Source of the DNA: Brevibacillus brevis
GTDB lineage: Bacteria; Bacillota; Bacilli; Brevibacillales; Brevibacillaceae
NCBI RefSeq assembly: GCF_900637055.1
Contig: NZ_LR134338.1
Span: forward strand, 2,986,001-3,050,000
Reading direction: 5' to 3'
DNA: 64,000 nt
Shown here piece by piece: positions 1,819 through 30,429 of this stretch (the first letter of the stretch is position 1; each line of letters opens with the position of its first letter). A program made the position numbers and the translations under genes. Below the pieces are notes generated by a model that made no database searches, was not told the origin of the DNA, and was given only the letters and a program-made list of their open reading frames with translations.

Positions 1819-2022
1819 TCAGCAGGTTGAAGTCAGCTCATCATAGGCATTTAAAAAATTTCGTTGCGTTTCTCCACCATAAACATCCAAATCCCCGTGA
1901 AAAAGACTCTCAACGGTTTTCACCTTCGCCTCGTCCGCAGTACACTGAAATACACGCATAACATGGGTAAGATACGCGAGAAAATACTCCTTACTAAGCA
2001 CGCTGCCCCTATTTACCTTCAT
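1819..2022 (-). CDS. Small hypothetical protein, last gene of the arsP operon
   Basis: The product is a 67-residue soluble protein of unknown family with a Cys in mid-chain and a Cys as its last residue. Its ATG overlaps the 3' end of the N-acetyltransferase gene by 14 bases, which suggests translational coupling. Hydrophobic and charged residues are mixed, and there is no signal peptide or membrane segment. The tight coupling supports a real gene. A truncated protein is possible, because the DNA downstream looks eroded. Confidence 0.55.
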   Translation of the reverse strand: MKVNRGSVLSKEYFLAYLTHVMRVFQCTADEAKVKTVESLFHGDLDVYGGETQRNFLNAYDELTSTC

Positions 2023-2530
2023 TACTCTCCTTACCTCCTATAAGAACTTTTTCCATTGCCATCACATCTACAAAACTTCCATCTAAGATTCCCTGGTTAT
2101 GAAATACACCGACTTCGCGGTACCCGCATTTTTTATATAGCCCTTGCCCTAGTTCATTAAAAGGAAAGGTAAACAACACGATTTTATAAAACTGGTGGGA
2201 TCGGGCAGTCTCTTCAAGCTTACGTAAAAGTACCTTTCCAACACCTTTCCCACGGTAATCTCGCTCAATATAAATAGATAAATCTGCGACACCATCATAG
2301 GCACAACGATTCGAGTAACGATTGAGAGAAGCCCATCCAATGATGGTATTATCCACCTCTGCCACAAGGACTGTATACCGTCCCTGATGCTCATCAAACC
2401 ATTTTCGGATATAGGTGTAAGCCTTTACTTCTGTTTCAAGCGTGGCAATTCGATCAACGATCCCCTGATTGTAGATAGCTAGGATGGATTCAAGGTCTTC
2501 GTCACTTGCTTTTCGAACGAAAAGATTCAT
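2009..2530 (-). CDS. arsN1: GNAT N-acetyltransferase, ArsN1-like (arsinothricin resistance)
   Basis: This 173-residue protein is a single GNAT domain. The N-terminal stretch YNQGIVDRIATLET is typical of the ArsN1/phosphinothricin acetyltransferase group, and the acetyl-CoA loop is visible as RGKGVGKVLL. ArsN1 acetylates the alpha-amino group of the arsenic antibiotic arsinothricin; related enzymes act on phosphinothricin or methionine derivatives. The gene lies downstream of arsP and a CC-rich mini-protein in the same direction, and this setting favours ArsN1 over a herbicide acetyltransferase. The substrate is inferred from family and context. Confidence 0.8.
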   Translation of the reverse strand: MNLFVRKASDEDLESILAIYNQGIVDRIATLETEVKAYTYIRKWFDEHQGRYTVLVAEVDNTIIGWASLNRYSNRCAYDGVADLSIYIERDYRGKGVGKVLLRKLEETARSHQFYKIVLFTFPFNELGQGLYKKCGYREVGVFHNQGILDGSFVDVMAMEKVLIGGKESNEGK

Positions 2531-2553: not shown

Positions 2554-2706
2554 TTATTTACAGCAAGAATCGTTTTTTATTCTGCTTCTTTTTTTTACTG
2601 TCTCCTCTTGATTACAGCAGTCATCTTTCGTTTCTTTTACCTCTTCGATCTTCACATTGCAGCAAGAACCTTCTTTTTTTCCAAACAAACTTTTCAAGAA
2701 TCCCAT
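2554..2706 (-). CDS. CC-rich mini-protein (50 residues), arsP operon
   Basis: The start at 2706 is set by AAGGAGGAG just upstream; longer versions reading into arsP lack this support. The 50-residue product begins with a hydrophobic, basic segment (MGFLKSLFGKK) and then carries three vicinal cysteine pairs (SCC, DCC, SCC) in a Lys/Glu-rich, probably unstructured chain. Vicinal cysteines are the classic ligands of As(III), Sb(III) and methylarsenite. The gene sits 13 bases after arsP and before arsN1. It does not resemble ArsD. A role as arsenical chaperone, buffer or scavenger is inferred; no family is recognised. Confidence 0.75.
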   Translation of the reverse strand: MGFLKSLFGKKEGSCCNVKIEEVKETKDDCCNQEETVKKRSRIKNDSCCK

Positions 2707-2719
2707 GTTAGACTCCTCC

Positions 2720-3586
2720 TTAGATGATATAGAATAACAATCCAGAAATAGTGGACATAGTGAACACAGATACAACAAAGGCTCCCACTAATCGCTTTTT
2801 AAAAATGGAGTTGAGCAAAGCCAATTCAGGTAAACTTGCTCCCGCAGAGCTGATCATTAATGCCATTGCTGGACCAAGCGCCATTCCTTTAGCAATCATG
2901 ATTTGTGAAATGGGAATCATGGTCGACAATCGAATGTATAGTGGTATACCAATAATGGCTGCGATCGGCACCATCCACCACTTATCACCACCAATATAGG
3001 TCGTAATCCACTCGGTCGGTACTACACCATGAATGACGGCTCCAATAGCAGCACCAATGATGAGATATGGGTATACCGTTTTCATCAACCCCATCGTTTC
3101 TATGAGAGCTACCTTCAGGCTAAAGGACTTCTTTGTCTCGTTGTATCCAGTCATAACGACTTGTTTCACTTGTTTTTCAAACCCTAATCGTTCAAGAGTA
3201 AACCCGATGATAACCGATAACACGGAAGTGATGATCGTATAAGCAATGGCTACTTTTGCACCAAGCATTGCTGCCATGAGAGTAATAATGGTTGGGTCCA
3301 GAACTGGTGAGGAGAAAAGGAACACCATTACGATTCCGAATTGAATTCTTTTGTTTAACAAATTAACAACTACCGGAATCGTTGAACATGAACAAAATGG
3401 TGTAACAAAAGCAAATACCAACGCCATGAGGGCTCCCAAGGCCGCGTTTTTCCCAGCTAAGAATTTTTCAACCTTTTCGTACGGGATAAAGCCCTGGAGC
3501 AAACTGATAGCAAATGAGATCCCAATAAACAATACTGTTAACTCTAAAGCAATCCACAATAAGCTGTTTAGTACTTCAATCCACAT
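2720..3586 (-). CDS. arsP: ArsP-type permease (organoarsenical efflux)
   Basis: The 288-residue integral membrane protein has about eight hydrophobic segments and the DUF318/UPF0718 signature TPFCSCSTIPVV in the first half. Proteins of this family called ArsP export trivalent organoarsenicals such as methylarsenite and trivalent roxarsone. The start at 3586 follows AAAGGGTGG; the longer frame from 3610 would begin inside a regulatory palindrome and lacks a ribosome site. It leads an operon with a CC mini-protein, arsN1 and a small protein. A MarR regulator lies directly upstream and a matching palindrome precedes the gene. Substrate is inferred from family and context. Confidence 0.85.
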   Translation of the reverse strand: MWIEVLNSLLWIALELTVLFIGISFAISLLQGFIPYEKVEKFLAGKNAALGALMALVFAFVTPFCSCSTIPVVVNLLNKRIQFGIVMVFLFSSPVLDPTIITLMAAMLGAKVAIAYTIITSVLSVIIGFTLERLGFEKQVKQVVMTGYNETKKSFSLKVALIETMGLMKTVYPYLIIGAAIGAVIHGVVPTEWITTYIGGDKWWMVPIAAIIGIPLYIRLSTMIPISQIMIAKGMALGPAMALMISSAGASLPELALLNSIFKKRLVGAFVVSVFTMSTISGLLFYII

Positions 3587-3604
3587 ACGTACCACCCTTT
3601 TTAT

Positions 3605-3617
3605 TTGCATTTTGCAA
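3605..3617. promoter_or_regulatory. MarR-type operator upstream of arsP
   Basis: The 13-bp palindrome TTGCATTTTGCAA lies between the MarR stop and the arsP ribosome site. It matches in length and outer bases the palindrome TTGCGAATCGCAA in front of the MarR gene. Confidence 0.65.
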
Positions 3618-3640
3618 GTATTATTGAAAGAGAAATGGGT

Positions 3641-4090
3641 TTAATCACCCATCGGATTACAACATTGCTTGGTTTTTGCCATTGCTTGATTGAACAATTT
3701 TAAGGATCGAATAACTGTTTCCTTTTCAAATTCGGACATATGAGAAAAGATATCGTCATAATACGCATTCATCGTCCGATCCATGTAATCATGCATGCGT
3801 TCGCCTTTTTCTGTTAAAGAAAGAATCTGTACCCTACGATCTTCTGCATAAGGAGTCTTTTTCACGAGCTCCGCATCGACCAATACTTGAACCTGTCGGC
3901 TAAATGTCGTTACATCCATTCCAAGAATCTCGGCAATTTGTTGGATGGATGGTTGATGGTTTCTGTGTATTTCATAGATGATGTGGCTTTGTGCAACCGA
4001 TATGTCAATCCCTTCAACCGAACAACAATTCTTATTTAACAGTCCAATACGTCGAGTCATCGTTTGTACAATTTCACGTATATTTTCCAT
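3641..4090 (-). CDS. MarR-family regulator with two cysteine pairs
   Basis: This 149-residue protein has the winged-helix MarR core. The DNA-recognition region lies at about residues 48-75, followed by the DRR wing motif at 84-86. It carries vicinal cysteines at 22-23 (NCC) and 143-144 (QCC), near the two ends that form the dimer interface in MarR proteins. The start at 4090 follows a GGAGGAGAGGTGAGGAA stretch. It lies upstream of the arsP operon, and similar palindromes precede it and arsP, so it probably represses both. Sensing of trivalent arsenicals through the CC pairs is inferred. Confidence 0.85.
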   Translation of the reverse strand: MENIREIVQTMTRRIGLLNKNCCSVEGIDISVAQSHIIYEIHRNHQPSIQQIAEILGMDVTTFSRQVQVLVDAELVKKTPYAEDRRVQILSLTEKGERMHDYMDRTMNAYYDDIFSHMSEFEKETVIRSLKLFNQAMAKTKQCCNPMGD

Positions 4091-4125
4091 TTCCTCACCT
4101 CTCCTCCTATTTATACACACATTAT

Positions 4126-4138
4126 TTGCGAATCGCAA
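4126..4138. promoter_or_regulatory. MarR operator in its own promoter region
   Basis: TTGCGAATCGCAA is a perfect palindrome 36 bp upstream of the MarR start and shares its form with the arsP site at 3605-3617. It points to autoregulation. Confidence 0.65.
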
Positions 4139-4148
4139 CTATTTTTTC

Positions 4149-4223
4149 ATCAAAAAAATTTGATGTTACCCATTGCTAATTTACAAATGGAGGAGTATAG
4201 TAATGTCATCAAGAAAAATTGAT
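4149..4223. promoter_or_regulatory. Two ArsR boxes (ATCAA-N6-TTGAT) around the arsR start
   Basis: Two exact ATCAA-N6-TTGAT palindromes are seen, at 4149-4164 and 4208-4223. This is the standard ArsR/SmtB operator form. The first lies in the divergent region shared with the MarR gene. The second covers codons 2-7 of the arsR gene if translation starts at 4203. Confidence 0.75.
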
Positions 4224-4565
4224 GAAGGTGACAATATGTTAAAAGAACTACCGATCCTACATACGAATAACGATACCTTCTTTGAGAAGTATGAAGCAAA
4301 GTTTAAAGCTCTTGCAGATAAAAAACGACTTCAGATTATGTATGAACTAACCCAAAAAGGGAAAGTTTGTGTCACCGATTTAGCGGAAATTGTAGATATG
4401 GCCCAATCTAAACTTTCGTACCACTTGAAGATCCTTTTGGATGCAAATCTGATTCTGAAAGAGACAGAGGGTACCATGAACTACTACTCCCTAAATCCTG
4501 ACGAAGTGAATCACCTTTTATCTGAAGAACTTTGCTGTATCTTCCGCCGAAATAATTGCTGCTAG
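4203..4565 (+). CDS. arsR: ArsR-family repressor with C-terminal cysteine pairs
   Basis: The 120-residue protein has a winged helix at about 35-100, with a recognition helix around QSKLSYHLKIL. It lacks the CVCDL metal site; instead it ends with Cys pairs at 111-112 and 119-120. This C-terminal placement resembles ArsR types whose As(III) or methylarsenite site is C-terminal. The start at 4203 is set by GGAGGAG seven bases upstream; ATG 4236 is an alternative. ATCAA-N6-TTGAT boxes lie before it, at its start and downstream, so it probably controls itself and the following small gene. Confidence 0.85.
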   Translation: MSSRKIDEGDNMLKELPILHTNNDTFFEKYEAKFKALADKKRLQIMYELTQKGKVCVTDLAEIVDMAQSKLSYHLKILLDANLILKETEGTMNYYSLNPDEVNHLLSEELCCIFRRNNCC

Positions 4566-4584
4566 TTCTTTTTTTCACCTTTTA

Positions 4585-4622
4585 ATCAATTTTTTTTGAT
4601 ATATACATCAAATAATCTTGAT
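4585..4622. promoter_or_regulatory. Tandem ArsR boxes after arsR
   Basis: Two exact ATCAA-N6-TTGAT palindromes occur at 4585-4600 and 4607-4622, a 22-bp pitch or about two helical turns. They lie directly before the ribosome site of the 58-residue gene, so the upstream ArsR probably also controls an internal promoter here. Confidence 0.75.
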
Positions 4623-4638
4623 ATAGGAGCTGATTCGT

Positions 4639-4815
4639 ATGATTTTGCATGATGTACTCGCACAAATGCTTTTTGAAGAACAAAAACAAAAACTTGAGTT
4701 CGTCACACGAAGGGCATGGCAGTTTCATCGAGGGGAGAATGTGCAATCTGCAAACAACCCACGCCAACAAACAACGCCCCTCCAAGTCCAGCAGCATCAA
4801 TGCGCAACATGCTAA
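4639..4815 (+). CDS. Small protein ending in CATC, behind tandem ArsR boxes
   Basis: AGGAG at 4625-4629 sits nine bases before this ATG. The 58-residue product has a helical, charged N-terminal half, a Gln-rich tail and a terminal CATC, the only cysteines in the chain. No family is recognised. The preceding tandem ArsR boxes make it likely to be expressed under arsenic control. It could be a true mini-protein with a CxxC metal or redox site, or the start of a gene that has lost its 3' part. Confidence 0.5.
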   Translation: MILHDVLAQMLFEEQKQKLEFVTRRAWQFHRGENVQSANNPRQQTTPLQVQQHQCATC

Positions 4816-4934
4816 TGATAATCTCATCTTTTGCCAATCGTTAAATGATTCAAAGTGGTAACTGATATTGTCTGCAAAATCATTGAATCCCCCTTTCTAT
4901 ACGGGGTTCAAATAAAACGTCTTAGGAGGAATTG

Positions 4935-5096
4935 ATGATGACAAACTTTGTTAAAGGTCCATCCGAAAATGAAAAAGGAGAATGCTGCGGGGGAGAATTA
5001 ACCGCACCGGCATCATGCTGCGAGGCCGAAGAACAAGGAGACAGTTCTTCTTGCTGCACTTCTGATACCAAAGACAATAGTCCGTCCTGCTGCTGA
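4935..5096 (+). CDS. CC-rich mini-protein (53 residues) with four cysteine pairs
   Basis: The sequence TAGGAGGA precedes tandem ATG codons at 4935 and 4938. The product is acidic, has no membrane segment and holds four vicinal cysteine pairs spaced by about 10-13 residues (ECC, SCC, SCC, and SCC at the very end). It is built like the minus-strand mini-protein at 2554-2706, with which it shares little sequence beyond the CC pairs. Binding of soft trivalent metalloids is inferred from the cysteine pattern and from the position between two arsR genes. It is not an ArsD. Confidence 0.75.
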   Translation: MMTNFVKGPSENEKGECCGGELTAPASCCEAEEQGDSSSCCTSDTKDNSPSCC

Positions 5097-5128
5097 TTAC
5101 CACTGAAACCCTTCCAGAATCTTCATAA

Positions 5129-5160
5129 ATGAAATGCGGGATGCCTATCCCGCATTTCAT
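5129..5160 (+). terminator. Hairpin after the CC mini-protein
   Basis: A perfect 14-bp stem (5129-5142 with 5147-5160) with a GCCT loop lies 33 bases after the stop. There is no long T run, so termination or 3'-end protection is only probable. Confidence 0.6.
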
Positions 5161-5204
5161 TAAACGTTAAAATACGATACAGAGACTCTTCAAATGTAAC
5201 GACC

Positions 5205-5251
5205 TTGACATCAACCTAAATTAGACATATTATATCGTTAAATTCCGATAT
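5205..5251 (+). promoter_or_regulatory. Promoter and operator of the second arsR
   Basis: TTGACA (5205-5210), a 17-base spacer and TATTAT (5228-5233) form a near-consensus sigma-A promoter. The inverted repeat ATATCG-N8-CGATAT (5232-5251) overlaps the -10 box and is well placed for repression. Confidence 0.8.
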
Positions 5252-5277
5252 AACGACGGAAGGGATGTTTCTGGTTG

Positions 5278-5562
5278 GTGCAGTTTAACGAAGTACAATC
5301 GTTCTTAAAGGCTCTCGCAAGTGAAAAAAGGCAGGAAATCATGTTTCTCTTTACAGATCGTAAAGAACTTACAGTAGGAGAAGTTGCCCATTTGGTTGCG
5401 ATTGGTCAATCAACAGCGTCAGAACAACTTGCCATACTCAAAAGGGCAGGCTTAGTTCATTCTCGTAAGGACGGAAAAGAGGTTTTTTATTCTCCGAACC
5501 GAGAGCAGATACTAGCATCTATGCAGCAACTCAATACCTACTTGCTCAATTGTTGTAAGTGA
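5278..5562 (+). CDS. arsR: ArsR-family repressor, second type
   Basis: The 94-residue protein is almost only a winged-helix domain, with the recognition helix at QSTASEQLAILKRAG. It lacks CVCDL and ends in NCCK, so the only cysteines are the vicinal pair at the C-terminus. GTG at 5278 is taken as the start; TTG 5275 is also possible. Its ATATCG-N8-CGATAT operator occurs in its own promoter and again before the flavin monooxygenase gene, so the two genes form its regulon. The trigger is probably a trivalent arsenical, by analogy with C-terminal CC-type ArsR proteins. Confidence 0.85.
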   Translation: MQFNEVQSFLKALASEKRQEIMFLFTDRKELTVGEVAHLVAIGQSTASEQLAILKRAGLVHSRKDGKEVFYSPNREQILASMQQLNTYLLNCCK

Positions 5563-5588: not shown

Positions 5589-5608
5589 ATATCGTTAAAT
5601 CCCGATAT
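5589..5608. promoter_or_regulatory. Second arsR-type operator, before the arsO-like gene
   Basis: ATATCG-N8-CGATAT is repeated here with a spacer nearly identical to that of the site at 5232-5251. It lies 12 bases before the monooxygenase start and overlaps its leader. Confidence 0.75.
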
Positions 5609-5620
5609 GACGAAAGGAAG

Positions 5621-6673
5621 ATGAACATGACCCGTATTTATGATTGTATTGTCATTGGTGCCGGTCAGGCCGGTTTGGCCGCTGGTTATCACCTTCTGCG
5701 AGAGCAGCGTGACTTTCTTATTCTAGAAGCTACCGATAAACCTGCTGGCTCGTGGCCTCAGTATTATGACAGCCTTACCTTGTTCTCACCTGCAAACTAC
5801 TCTTCTCTTCCTGGATTTGCTTTCCCAGGTGACCCGAACCGATACCCTACCCGTAATGAGGTCGTTGCGTATTTGATCCATTACGCTAAACATTTTAACT
5901 TCCCTATTCTGACCCGTACGACTGTAACGAATGTTCAAAAAGAAAAGGATTTATTTTTGGTCAAAACCCAATCAGATGAGGTATTTCAAGCCAAACATAT
6001 TATCGCTGCGACGGGCGGATTTAGTCGACCCTATCTTCCGCAAATTCCTGGGGTTGAACAATTTCAAGGAATGACTCTCCATTCAAAGGACTATCAAAAC
6101 CCTACCCCTTTTCAAAACCAACGCATCATCGTGGTTGGTGCTGGTAACTCTGCGGTTCAAATTGCAGTGGAGTTGGCTACAAATGCTGAGGTTACTATCG
6201 CCACACGATCACCCATTGTCTTTAAGCCGCAGATCCTTTTCGGCAAGGATATCCACTTCTGGGTCACTGCACTGGGGCTAGACCAATCAGGTTTTGGAAA
6301 GTGGCTACTTCAGTCGAAACCTGAAGGTGTACTGGATACCGGGAGATACCAAATGGCCATCGAAAATCAAAAGCCTGATCGAAAAGCAATGTTCACCCAC
6401 TTTACGAATAAAGGCGTTGTTTGGTCAGACGGTACTCAAGAACAAGTGGATACAGTCATCTTTGCCACTGGTTATCGTCCTAATATCCAATACCTTTCCT
6501 CTCTTCATGCTTTGACCGAAGATGGTTCTCCGCAGCATCAATACGGCGTCAGTACAACAGTTCCAGGCCTGTATTACGTTGGGCTCCCCTGGCAACGGTC
6601 CCTAGCATCGGCTACCCTACGTGGGGTCGGCAGTGATGCAAAATATGTAGTAAAACATATGCAGAACAGCTAA
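5621..6673 (+). CDS. arsO: ArsO-like flavin monooxygenase
   Basis: The 350-residue cytoplasmic protein has an N-terminal FAD Rossmann motif GAGQAG at about residues 13-18 and a central NADPH motif GAGNSA near 179, the layout of group B flavin monooxygenases. ArsO is the name of such proteins in arsenic clusters; their exact reaction is not well settled. The start at 5621 follows AAAGGAAG; ATG 5627 is also possible. An operator for the preceding ArsR lies directly upstream, which ties it to the arsenic response. Oxidation of an arsenical or an antioxidant role is inferred from context. Confidence 0.75.
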   Translation: MNMTRIYDCIVIGAGQAGLAAGYHLLREQRDFLILEATDKPAGSWPQYYDSLTLFSPANYSSLPGFAFPGDPNRYPTRNEVVAYLIHYAKHFNFPILTRTTVTNVQKEKDLFLVKTQSDEVFQAKHIIAATGGFSRPYLPQIPGVEQFQGMTLHSKDYQNPTPFQNQRIIVVGAGNSAVQIAVELATNAEVTIATRSPIVFKPQILFGKDIHFWVTALGLDQSGFGKWLLQSKPEGVLDTGRYQMAIENQKPDRKAMFTHFTNKGVVWSDGTQEQVDTVIFATGYRPNIQYLSSLHALTEDGSPQHQYGVSTTVPGLYYVGLPWQRSLASATLRGVGSDAKYVVKHMQNS

Positions 6674-6758: not shown

Positions 6759-8135
6759 TTATTCAGAAAACAGCTTGTGTAAAACCTCTTTTTGTTTAGG
6801 CTTAATGTTGATTTCTGACCGAATTTCTTTCACTTTTTCTTCTGCTTCTTGCAGCGTACTGCTTAATCCAAGAGAAAGATGTGTACCTGCTGCTACAACA
6901 CCTGTTCTGCCGCGTCCTCCATTACAGTGGAAGGCTACCTTCTTGCCATTTTTGTAAGCTTTCACTACTTCATCAATCGCTTGCTTAAAAAGAGTACCTT
7001 GATCCGAATTGCCTTCATCGCCGAGGGCAATCTGAATCCACTGTACATTCGGATCTGAAAACGCTGGTTGCTGAGCTTCTCCACGTAGATCGACAACGAC
7101 GTCTACACCTTCGTTTTGGATCATGGACTCTACATCTGAGGCACTCCCAAGGAAAATTTTATCTTCGACTAATGCCTGATACTGTTTTGGTTCCGACATG
7201 CTCCAATCATGGACGGCAACGCCTTCCAGGAATCTTTCACAGTCAAGTGCGGCCATGCAGCCTGTCCCAGCTGCCGAAATGGCTTGGCGATACCGGTGAT
7301 CTTGCACATCACCACATGCAAACACGCCAGGAATATTGGTTTCAGTTGTACCTGCTGTTACCATGATATAACCTGTCTCGTCTGTTTTGATTTGCCCCTT
7401 AAGGAAAGTTGTATTCGGTCGATGGCCAATCGCTACAAAAATGCCATCCGTATCGATCGTTTCTTCCACACCAGTGTCATTCTGTTTTACTTTCAGCCCC
7501 GTTACCCCTTTTTCATTAGAGATAACCTCAATGGGAGTAGCGTTTAAACTCCATGTAATCTTCGGGTTATTCCTAGCCCGATCTTGCATGATTTTTGATG
7601 CTCGCAGTTCATTTCTGCGATGAACCACTCTTACTTCCGTAGCGAATTTGGTTAAGAAATTCGCCTCTTCCATTGCAGAGTCTCCACCTCCGACGATAAT
7701 AACATTCTTCCCTCTGAAGAAAAAGCCATCACAAGTGGCACACGTGCTTACTCCACGGCCTATGTTTTCCTTCTCACCAGGAATACCGAGCAGTTTTGCG
7801 GAAGCACCTGTAGAAACGACGAGAGACTCGGCCTGGATTTGGACTGATTCATCAACGGTTAGCGTGAAAGGACGTCTTGATAAATCGACATTGGTTACCC
7901 ACCCCGTCTGAAATGTTGCTCCAAAGCGTTCTGCTTGCTTACGCATGTTTTGCATGAGCTCTGGCCCCATGATTCCATCAGGGAACCCCGGGAAGTTCTC
8001 CACTTCGGTTGTGAGAGTCAATTGACCTCCCGGTTCATTCCCCTCGATCACAAGTGGATTCATATTCGCACGTGCAAGATAAATGGCAGCAGTTAGACCA
8101 GCAGGTCCTGTTCCGAGGACAACAACTTTATGCAT
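6759..8135 (-). CDS. Thioredoxin reductase fused to a Cys-based phosphatase domain
   Basis: The start at 8135 follows AGGAGGGG; the open frame extends upstream but without a ribosome site. Residues 1-310 are a complete TrxB-type reductase: FAD motif GTGPAG at 8-13, redox site CATC at 132-135, NADPH motif GGGDSA at 149-154. Normal TrxB ends there (~310-320 residues). Residues ~315-458 form a dual-specificity phosphatase-like domain with the P-loop HCNGGRGR (Cys404, Arg410). TrxB would supply electrons for the thioredoxin-linked ArsC nearby; the phosphatase domain may itself reduce arsenate or act on a phospho-compound. The domains are seen; the joint function is inferred. Confidence 0.85.
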   Translation of the reverse strand: MHKVVVLGTGPAGLTAAIYLARANMNPLVIEGNEPGGQLTLTTEVENFPGFPDGIMGPELMQNMRKQAERFGATFQTGWVTNVDLSRRPFTLTVDESVQIQAESLVVSTGASAKLLGIPGEKENIGRGVSTCATCDGFFFRGKNVIIVGGGDSAMEEANFLTKFATEVRVVHRRNELRASKIMQDRARNNPKITWSLNATPIEVISNEKGVTGLKVKQNDTGVEETIDTDGIFVAIGHRPNTTFLKGQIKTDETGYIMVTAGTTETNIPGVFACGDVQDHRYRQAISAAGTGCMAALDCERFLEGVAVHDWSMSEPKQYQALVEDKIFLGSASDVESMIQNEGVDVVVDLRGEAQQPAFSDPNVQWIQIALGDEGNSDQGTLFKQAIDEVVKAYKNGKKVAFHCNGGRGRTGVVAAGTHLSLGLSSTLQEAEEKVKEIRSEINIKPKQKEVLHKLFSE

Positions 8136-30112: not shown

Positions 30113-30224
30113 ATTTCTCTAAATACGCATGCCAAATATCACGGGAAGAGCCAACCATCTCCTCAATGGACATGGGCGCCCGATACTTGCATCAAAAAGA
30201 TGACATGCAACTGATGTAAGATTA

Positions 30225-30350
30225 CTCTGCTTTAGCCGACGAGGTTAGCTGACGGGTAGGATGGCAGTTTTGCACCCCTTCTGTTTGCACAGAATTAACC
30301 CCTGATAGATGGTTCCCCCGCTTCCGCCATGAGCGGAACTAGGCCCTTAT
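30225..30350 (-). ncRNA. ydaO/yuaA-type c-di-AMP riboswitch
   Basis: The minus-strand leader shows ydaO-class landmarks in order: a GGGGGAACC segment (about 30320-30310), an AGGGGT(T)AAT segment, and near the 3' end the highly conserved ACCCGTCAGCTAACCTCGT (30258-30240) followed by the closing stem. This class binds cyclic di-AMP and turns genes off by termination, and it often controls osmolyte and potassium systems. A strong terminator lies downstream. The leader would lower ectoine uptake and synthesis when c-di-AMP is high. Confidence 0.9.
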
Positions 30351-30429
30351 TTGGTTGAGGTTGGTATCTTGTTCTCCTCTCACGAATCATTATGGTTAAC
30401 TTGGGGGTTATGGTAACATAACTGTCTTT

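Follow-up and report, generated by a model that had tools for sequence, protein, structure and literature searches.

Vicinal thiols are described as strong binders of arsenite (As(III)), and the permease ArsP as an exporter of methylarsenite (MAs(III)) and trivalent roxarsone (PMC6205960). The closest described small protein in this context is ArsD, which is encoded in ars operons and carries vicinal cysteine pairs (PMC12607644). Here we analyzed a 64,000-nucleotide (nt) stretch of the Brevibacillus brevis genome (the window; bases 2,986,001-3,050,000 of the 6.73-Mb single-contig genome), the first 11 kb of which are occupied by an arsenic island. The island contains two small genes, CC50 and CC53, whose products carry several vicinal cysteine (CC) pairs, and a third small gene, ORF58. 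Since genes of the family to which CC50 and CC53 belong are almost always found beside one branch of ArsP permeases, their products probably catch toxic arsenic and help ArsP to remove it.

CC50 resembles ArsD in its vicinal cysteine pairs and in being encoded in an ars operon, and it would likewise feed an efflux pump. However, ArsD has about 115 amino acids (aa) and CC50 only 50, CC50 has no confident fold, and it is linked to ArsP instead of ArsA. The ArsD profile PF06953 is absent from the whole genome. A whole-genome search with PF02374 (ArsA) gave no ArsA ATPase adjacent to the CC genes; all four matches lie outside the window, including a strong ArsA-type ATPase (G000:C1:1351685-1352587, 324.5 bits) 1.6 Mb away from the island. 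CC relatives co-occur with an annotated arsD on one Staphylococcus and one Enterococcus plasmid. From this comparison CC50 may work like ArsD, but is not ArsD.

Like metallothioneins, CC50 is short, cysteine-rich and without a confident fold in the absence of metal. No such profile matched, however, and in the CC50 family the cysteines stand as CC pairs on a V-x-I-x-E-V frame and the genes are linked to ArsP. MTH895/ArsE and DUF2703 proteins come close through fusion, as eight relatives bear a CC leader at the N-terminus of such a protein, whereas the window proteins have no such thioredoxin-fold domain in Pfam or NCBIfam. Another comparable system is the selenocysteine-assisted organometal operon (SaoE/SaoT), in which an ArsP-like permease is combined with a small thiol protein. 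The window ArsP scores 87 bits with the SaoE model, below the cut-off of 325, and SaoT was not among the NCBIfam families shown for the ten window proteins scanned. The papers listed by a literature search on this operon were all unrelated.

The preliminary description of the island held that the small proteins are not ArsD and match no known family, and this stands. With Pfam and NCBIfam no family was matched by CC50, CC53 or ORF58 at expectation values (E) up to 1, and for 30 members of the CC50 family the few matches at E up to 0.1 were weak and unrelated, the best of them being Galaxin_repeat in two members. The CC50 family is modelled by neither database, and no solved structure matched. 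No description of it was found in the literature searched, a search whose coverage left most subscription papers outside, and its members are hypothetical proteins in the records examined where they are annotated at all (e.g., WP_002509686.1). The comparison suggests that the CC50 family is a new one, a variant among arsenical-binding accessory proteins.

Coding capacity and relatedness of the small genes

The three open reading frames (ORFs) were found as they had been described: CC50 with 50 aa and three CC pairs, CC53 with 53 aa and four CC pairs (52 aa if started at the second ATG, 4938), and ORF58 with 58 aa ending in CATC. The strong ribosome sites were also confirmed, AAGGAGGAG upstream of CC50 and AGGAGG upstream of CC53, and ORF58 is preceded by AGGAG. 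The genes arsN1, arsP, arsR-a and arsR-b around them were identified by NCBIfam and Pfam models, together with a gene for a MarR-family regulator. Within the window 2 of 338 ORFs of 40-80 aa contain at least three CC pairs, compared to 1 of 26,069 in 60 first-order Markov shuffles.

The ratio of non-synonymous to synonymous differences per site (pN/pS) was 0.22-0.24 for CC50 (3/3 pairs), 0.33-0.48 for CC53 (6/6 pairs) and 0.29-0.55 for ORF58 (3/3 pairs). These ratios are rough, since several pairs approach saturation at synonymous sites. Fisher tests are available for 5 of the 12 pairs, with P values of 2.7e-8 for CC50 between the window and locus L100, 5.3e-5 and 1.1e-5 for CC53, and 4.2e-7 and 0.022 for ORF58 (L numbers designate loci and G numbers genomes). 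A Shine-Dalgarno-like site precedes the chosen start in 29 of 30 family members. Hence, as judged from these comparisons, CC50, CC53 and ORF58 are genuine genes under purifying selection; frame conservation and a pN/pS ratio away from one were among the points on which the preliminary description had wanted them to be judged, and the frames are conserved and the ratios below one.

In the same description the small proteins were called unrelated. This holds for ORF58, which belongs to a different family, but it is ruled out for CC50 and CC53: the members L082, L103, L107 and L100 connect the two, and they have the core CC-x-[VI]-x-I-x-E-V in common. L082, a member from an arsP operon, matches L107 with E 4e-9 (single comparison), and the unit can be aligned as NCCGVEIKEV in L107, NCCGVDITEV in L103 and SCCNVKIEEV in CC50. 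Head-to-head, CC50 and CC53 match only weakly (E 0.022) because the window CC53 has lost part of the unit. By this shared core both proteins are members of one family. When 39 genomes of the bacterial family were searched, CC50 relatives with 69-74% identity were found in three and weaker ones elsewhere, and CC53 relatives in G016 and G013.

A set of 30 members, hand-picked from profile hits with CC50 as reference, follows a common plan: the N-terminus is short, with many F, L, I and K residues, and is followed by a linker, the unit CC-x-[VI]-x-[IF]-x-E-V-K, an acidic linker and further CC pairs. The pattern CC-x-[VIFM]-x-[IFMLV] is matched by 29 of them. In the ArsP-linked type the N-terminus is short, hydrophobic and basic (MxFxKxLFGKK). 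The members carry two to five CC pairs, and their mean net charge after the first CC is -4.6. In L105 a 15-aa module is present in extra tandem copies, resulting in four CC pairs.

ORF58 represents, on sequence comparison, a second, separate small family. A five-row ORF58 profile gave matches in 12 of 398 Bacilli genomes (E up to 0.01), which were strong for its own five rows only; seven sequences of the weak matches were inspected. The arsP operons of L082, L112, L109 and L076 encode distantly similar proteins whose C-terminal tail contains CC or CxxC. Small proteins in L228 and L229 are similar to ORF58 by eye, with a helix-like start and a cysteine-rich C-terminal tail; they are leads only, and they suggest a wider ORF58-like family.

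Linkage to one branch of ArsP permeases

A ten-member CC profile matched in 40 of 398 Bacilli genomes (E up to 0.05), and with the window ArsP as query places were found in 83 of 398 Bacilli genomes drawn alike. Where ArsP shares at least 38% identity with the window ArsP, a CC gene was found no further than 1.6 kb away in 42 of 43 loci, window included. Of the 42 places outside the window, 40 have a CC ORF at profile E <0.01 and L090 was recognized by the class profile only (E 0.0125); in the one exception, L152, ArsP is frameshifted and a CC gene is absent. Near the more distant permeases (about 37% identity or less) no CC gene was detected in any of the 29 loci fetched from 46 places. The difference, 42/43 versus 0/29, corresponds to a Fisher P of 2.6e-19, although the loci are related and not independent, and the identity cut was chosen afterwards within the observed gap (38.8 versus 34.8%).

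Several features of the sample define how this count should be read. Many of the 42 CC loci are part of the alignment behind the scoring profile. The least circular subset, L150-L160, was fetched although the first ten-member profile search had found no CC gene there, and with a profile built without these loci a CC gene was detected in 10 of 11. Among the distant places 17 of the 46 were unfetched, and some of those fetched end less than 1.6 kb from a contig edge (e.g., L198, L202, L208). Weak rows are L102, with a fragmentary ArsP and a CC gene with differing first codons, L109 with a split ArsP, and L091 and L150 with one CC pair each. Hits of the ten-member profile above E 0.001 away from ArsP (G040, G243, G056, G159, G004, G275, G201 and one of G289, among others) were taken as noise. 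The linkage lends genetic, but not biochemical, support to the inference in the preliminary description that the CC proteins are chaperones or buffers handing metalloids to ArsP.

The motif TPFCSC is present in the ArsP of 42 of 42 fetched branch loci and in that of the window; Yang et al. describe tPF ahead of C(S/T)C for their ArsP cluster 2 (PMC4435449). As a discriminator of the branch the motif is insufficient, as it is also found in some distant permeases without a CC gene.

Outside the Bacilli the association is found as well. With the 30-member profile, 26 of 398 phylum-wide genomes were matched (E up to 0.01), 24 of them outside Bacilli. By reading, an ArsP ORF or a piece of one is located beside the match or within about 0.6 kb in 20 of these 24 genomes; ArsP is broken in G582 and G739. 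On plasmids a CC gene follows the permease in Paenibacillus (one examined), Priestia (three examined) and Cupriavidus pRK1-4, and, judged by eye only, directly in Rhodococcus pLW4 and Arthrobacter pA2H1. With a Staphylococcus query, 26 plasmid records were found, of which 24 are from Staphylococcus. In two of three matched records examined, one from Staphylococcus and one from Enterococcus, the CC gene stands right after an annotated permease, and in the third no permease is annotated there.

In seven non-Bacilli genomes the CC leader is followed, within one protein of about 230-290 aa, by a DUF2703 body (PF10865, E 1e-35 to 7e-39, 7/7), and in five of the seven an ArsP ORF or piece is found just upstream. 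In one further non-Bacilli genome the domain behind the leader is of the MTH895/ArsE thioredoxin-like kind (TIGR00412, E 6e-29). DUF2703 has been assigned to a thioredoxin-fold family (PMC6514093). L119 has a fusion of the CC leader with a part of weak similarity to carboxymuconolactone decarboxylase (CMD; PF02627, E 0.0067, below the cut-off), and in L114 the CMD-like part is a separate gene adjoining the CC gene (E 0.0054). These fusions, as read from the sequences, point toward thiol chemistry with ArsP.

The link to ArsI suggested earlier was not borne out. The ArsI of Brevibacillus centrosporus (L101:8480-8974; NF041414, 168.7 bits), which stands behind arsR-a where the window has ORF58 and CC53, ends in a tail with three CC pairs. 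It is not counted as a fusion because the NCBIfam ArsI model reaches into the tail (aligned residues 4-158 of 164). CC tails may be a normal feature of ArsI.

Organization and putative control of the arsenic island

The features are collected in Table 1. The genes marR-arsP-CC50-arsN1 on the minus strand (unit A) presumably form a single transcription unit, with gaps of 13 nt between arsP and CC50 and 23 nt between CC50 and arsN1. The same is assumed for arsR-a, ORF58 and CC53 (unit B) and for arsR-b with the gene of the ArsO-like flavoprotein (unit C), both on the plus strand. CC53 is divergent from arsP and 1.35 kb away. Downstream of unit C the minus strand carries the thioredoxin reductase-phosphatase-like fusion, arsI, arsC, arsB and a third arsR.

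Table 1. Genes and repeats of the arsenic island, with positions in the window
Feature	Position	Strand	Basis
arsN1 family A, arsinothricin N-acetyltransferase, last gene of arsP-CC50-arsN1	2009..2530	-	NF040503, 221.8 bits (cut-off 170)
CC50, 50-aa CC-module protein, ArsP-linked type, 3 CC pairs	2554..2706	-	profile matches in relatives beside arsP; pN/pS and Shine-Dalgarno-like site (see text)
arsP, permease, 287 aa, TPFCSC motif	2720..3583	-	PF03773, E 1.8e-50; sequence
TTGC-N5-GCAA palindrome between marR and arsP, possible MarR operator	3605..3617		same place in 11/25 chosen loci
MarR-family regulator, CC pairs near both ends	3641..4090	-	PF12802/PF01047; sequence
TTGC-N5-GCAA palindrome upstream of marR	4126..4138		same place in 18/25 chosen loci
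ATCAA-N6-TTGAT palindrome upstream of arsR-a, possible ArsR operator	4149..4164		sequence
arsR-a, product ends ELCCIFRRNNCC	4203..4565	+	NF033788, 89.9 bits
ATCAA-N6-TTGAT palindrome inside first codons of arsR-a	4208-4223		sequence
Tandem ATCAA-N6-TTGAT palindromes (4585-4600, 4607-4622) ahead of ORF58-CC53	4585..4622		similar pairs in L100, L107
ORF58, small protein, C-terminal CATC, second family	4639..4815	+	relatives at the same place in L107 (68% identical) and L100 (57%); profile search
CC53, diverged CC-module protein, four CC pairs	4935..5096	+	relatives L107 (63 aa), L103 (66 aa), L100 (59 aa); pN/pS (see text)
Perfect 15-bp inverted repeat after CC53, possible ORF58-CC53 transcript end, without T run	5128..5161		sequence scan
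ATATCG-N8-CGATAT palindrome upstream of arsR-b; second copy (5589-5608) before ArsO-like gene	5232..5251		sequence
arsR-b, product ends LNCCK	5275..5562	+	NF033788, 71.3 bits
ArsO-like flavin monooxygenase	5627..6673	+	NF040505, 298 bits (below cut-off 425)
Thioredoxin reductase fused to dual-specificity-phosphatase-like domain	6759-8135	-	TIGR01292, 392 bits; PF00782

The palindromes ahead of both gene groups are possible operators of MarR and ArsR, a role proposed from their sequence and position. TTGC-N5-GCAA has four copies in the window; in 5 of 25 chosen loci with this MarR it is found at neither of the two places listed. The CC-bearing MarR, accompanied by this palindrome nearby in the window and in most of the 25 loci of relatives, may be an arsenical-sensing MarR. 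ATCAA-N6-TTGAT is also present four times, always around arsR-a or before ORF58, with copies at like places in L100, L107 and L101 and none in L103. As one copy falls within the first codons of arsR-a, translation of this gene may instead begin at the ATG at 4236. Of ATATCG-N8-CGATAT the window has two copies, and the four relatives checked have none. Promoter and terminator scans gave results no better than shuffles.

A few additional elements were observed. A small conserved ORF (MKVNRGSVLSKEYFLAYLTHVMRVF...) without a Pfam match adjoins arsN1 in the window (1819-2022), in L107 (12884-13093) and in L191 (2448-2642); by eye it resembles a hypothetical protein encoded upstream of arsR-arsP on an Enterococcus hirae plasmid. 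A gene for an M28-type peptidase recurs by CC genes in ars islands (L029:1711-2961, L047:1718-2995, L081:4815-6059), identified by PF04389 for the L081 copy (E 1.9e-32) and by eye for the other two; this peptidase might cut arsinothricin peptides. In L087 (4004-6143) a 351-aa ArsM-like methyltransferase (NF040538, 341.8 bits, cut-off 500) is encoded between arsP and the CC gene. Finally, the minus strand of the window contains a c-di-AMP riboswitch at 30220-30355 (RF00379, 72.6 bits).

Proposed function of the CC proteins

On balance we favor the reading that CC50 docks at the membrane or at ArsP, binds trivalent arsenicals and loads the permease, and that CC53 acts as a buffer or chaperone. 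CC50 is probably anchored to ArsP or the membrane by its N-terminus MxFxKxLFGKK. Trivalent arsenicals, most plausibly MAs(III) and perhaps As(III), would be bound by the vicinal thiols of the CC-x-[VI]-x-I-x-E-V-K unit and of the later CC pairs, set in an acidic and flexible chain, and CC50 would then pass the bound arsenical to ArsP for efflux. CC53, encoded with ORF58 in a separate unit by an arsR gene, could buffer or chaperone arsenicals inside the cell in a similar way, with no permease dedicated to it. The thioredoxin-fold fusions would fit a thiol relay.

Several observations weigh against this reading. The arsP gene of Campylobacter jejuni is described as conferring MAs(III) efflux in E. 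coli, with ArsP working alone (PMC6205960), and a lone arsP as conferring MAs(III) resistance in E. coli (PMC11653729). The AlphaFold model of CC50 has low confidence (predicted local distance difference test, pLDDT, 59; predicted template modelling score, pTM, 0.16), so that no fold backs the docking. An amphipathic N-terminal helix was not supported for the ArsP-linked type, as amphipathicity in its 26 members is not significantly above chance (permutation fraction 0.197); the fraction is 0.018 for all 30 members and 0 of 1000 for the four CC53-type members. Outside the Bacilli, an adjacent intact ArsP was not found in 4 of the 24 genomes: in G676 only the start of an ArsP is present and is joined to the CC leader, with an arsenite methyltransferase gene (PRK11873, 330.6 bits) next to it, the locus of G753 stops at a contig edge, and G698 and G630 have no adjacent ArsP. 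For the match beside ArsP in G491, no usual start codon opens an ORF of 30 aa. On plasmids, no CC partner was seen next to the permeases of Ruegeria, Pseudoalteromonas, Arthrobacter pA58H2, E. coli, Natrinema and Halocatena (eight permease-plasmid records examined, among 60 listed of 936). Finally, G016 can be read both ways. The joint absence of ArsP (at E 1e-10) and of an arsP-linked CC gene, with a flavoprotein in place of arsP and CC50 in its marR-arsN1 segment, speaks for the link to ArsP. Yet this genome keeps a CC53-type gene (CC63) and an ORF58-type gene (ORF57), and delivery to ArsP cannot therefore be the whole story.

A more far-reaching version of docking and loading is put forward only tentatively. 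Here this ArsP branch would be a two-part machine, in which a thiol peptide docked at the membrane takes up methylarsenite, or an organoarsenical that is thiolated or an antibiotic, and delivers it into the permease. The fused relatives would form a relay from redox protein to peptide to pump, and the second copy by arsR would handle arsenic without ArsP.

It is rather unlikely that the CC proteins are a pure intracellular sponge of the metallothionein kind, which lowers the free trivalent arsenical without specific contact to ArsP. A chain with two to five CC pairs and a mean net charge of -4.6 after the first CC, the low-confidence model and the CC53-type gene of G016 would suit a sponge, but the near-exclusive linkage to one ArsP branch would not, three pairs in 50 aa offer little capacity, and the conserved N-terminus and the order CC-x-V-x-I-x-E-V exceed mere cysteine content.

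Still less probable is a role as thiol-redox partner, in which a trivalent substrate or the C-S-C motif of ArsP would be kept reduced by the CC protein, alone or in its form fused to a thioredoxin fold. The fusions to DUF2703 and MTH895/ArsE domains and the TPFCSC motif shared by all fetched branch permeases and the window ArsP would agree with this role, and a DUF2703 protein of a Rhodococcus ars cluster has been proposed for thiol/disulfide exchange (PMC6514093). However, CC50 has neither a CxxC motif nor a confident fold, and the multiplied modules of L105 suit capacity over catalysis. In addition, vicinal CC pairs are poor redox catalysts.

We consider it improbable that the CC proteins are small structural or regulatory subunits of ArsP, or feedback factors for the CC-bearing MarR with their cysteines as sensor. 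The order marR-arsP-CC, the CC pairs of the MarR and ArsR proteins themselves and the shared palindromes speak for such a role, but the two CC types stand beside different regulators and the family is also found with PadR or ArsR, so that no single regulator can be the partner. That the small frames are chance or decaying ORFs without function is highly improbable, as their shortness and the incomplete V-x-I-x-E-V unit of the window CC53 are outweighed by pN/pS ratios of 0.22-0.55, Shine-Dalgarno-like sites in nearly all members and relatives in Bacillota and Cupriavidus as well as, by eye, in two actinobacterial plasmids.

Among these explanations we retain docking at the membrane or ArsP and loading of the permease as the favored one. 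A survey of 2015 left open why ArsP splits into sub-clusters (PMC4435449). If a CC protein acts on ArsP, it would be an accessory part of an organic-arsenic pump. The family would then represent a type of metalloid chaperone beside ArsD and provide a ready-made arsenical-binding peptide.

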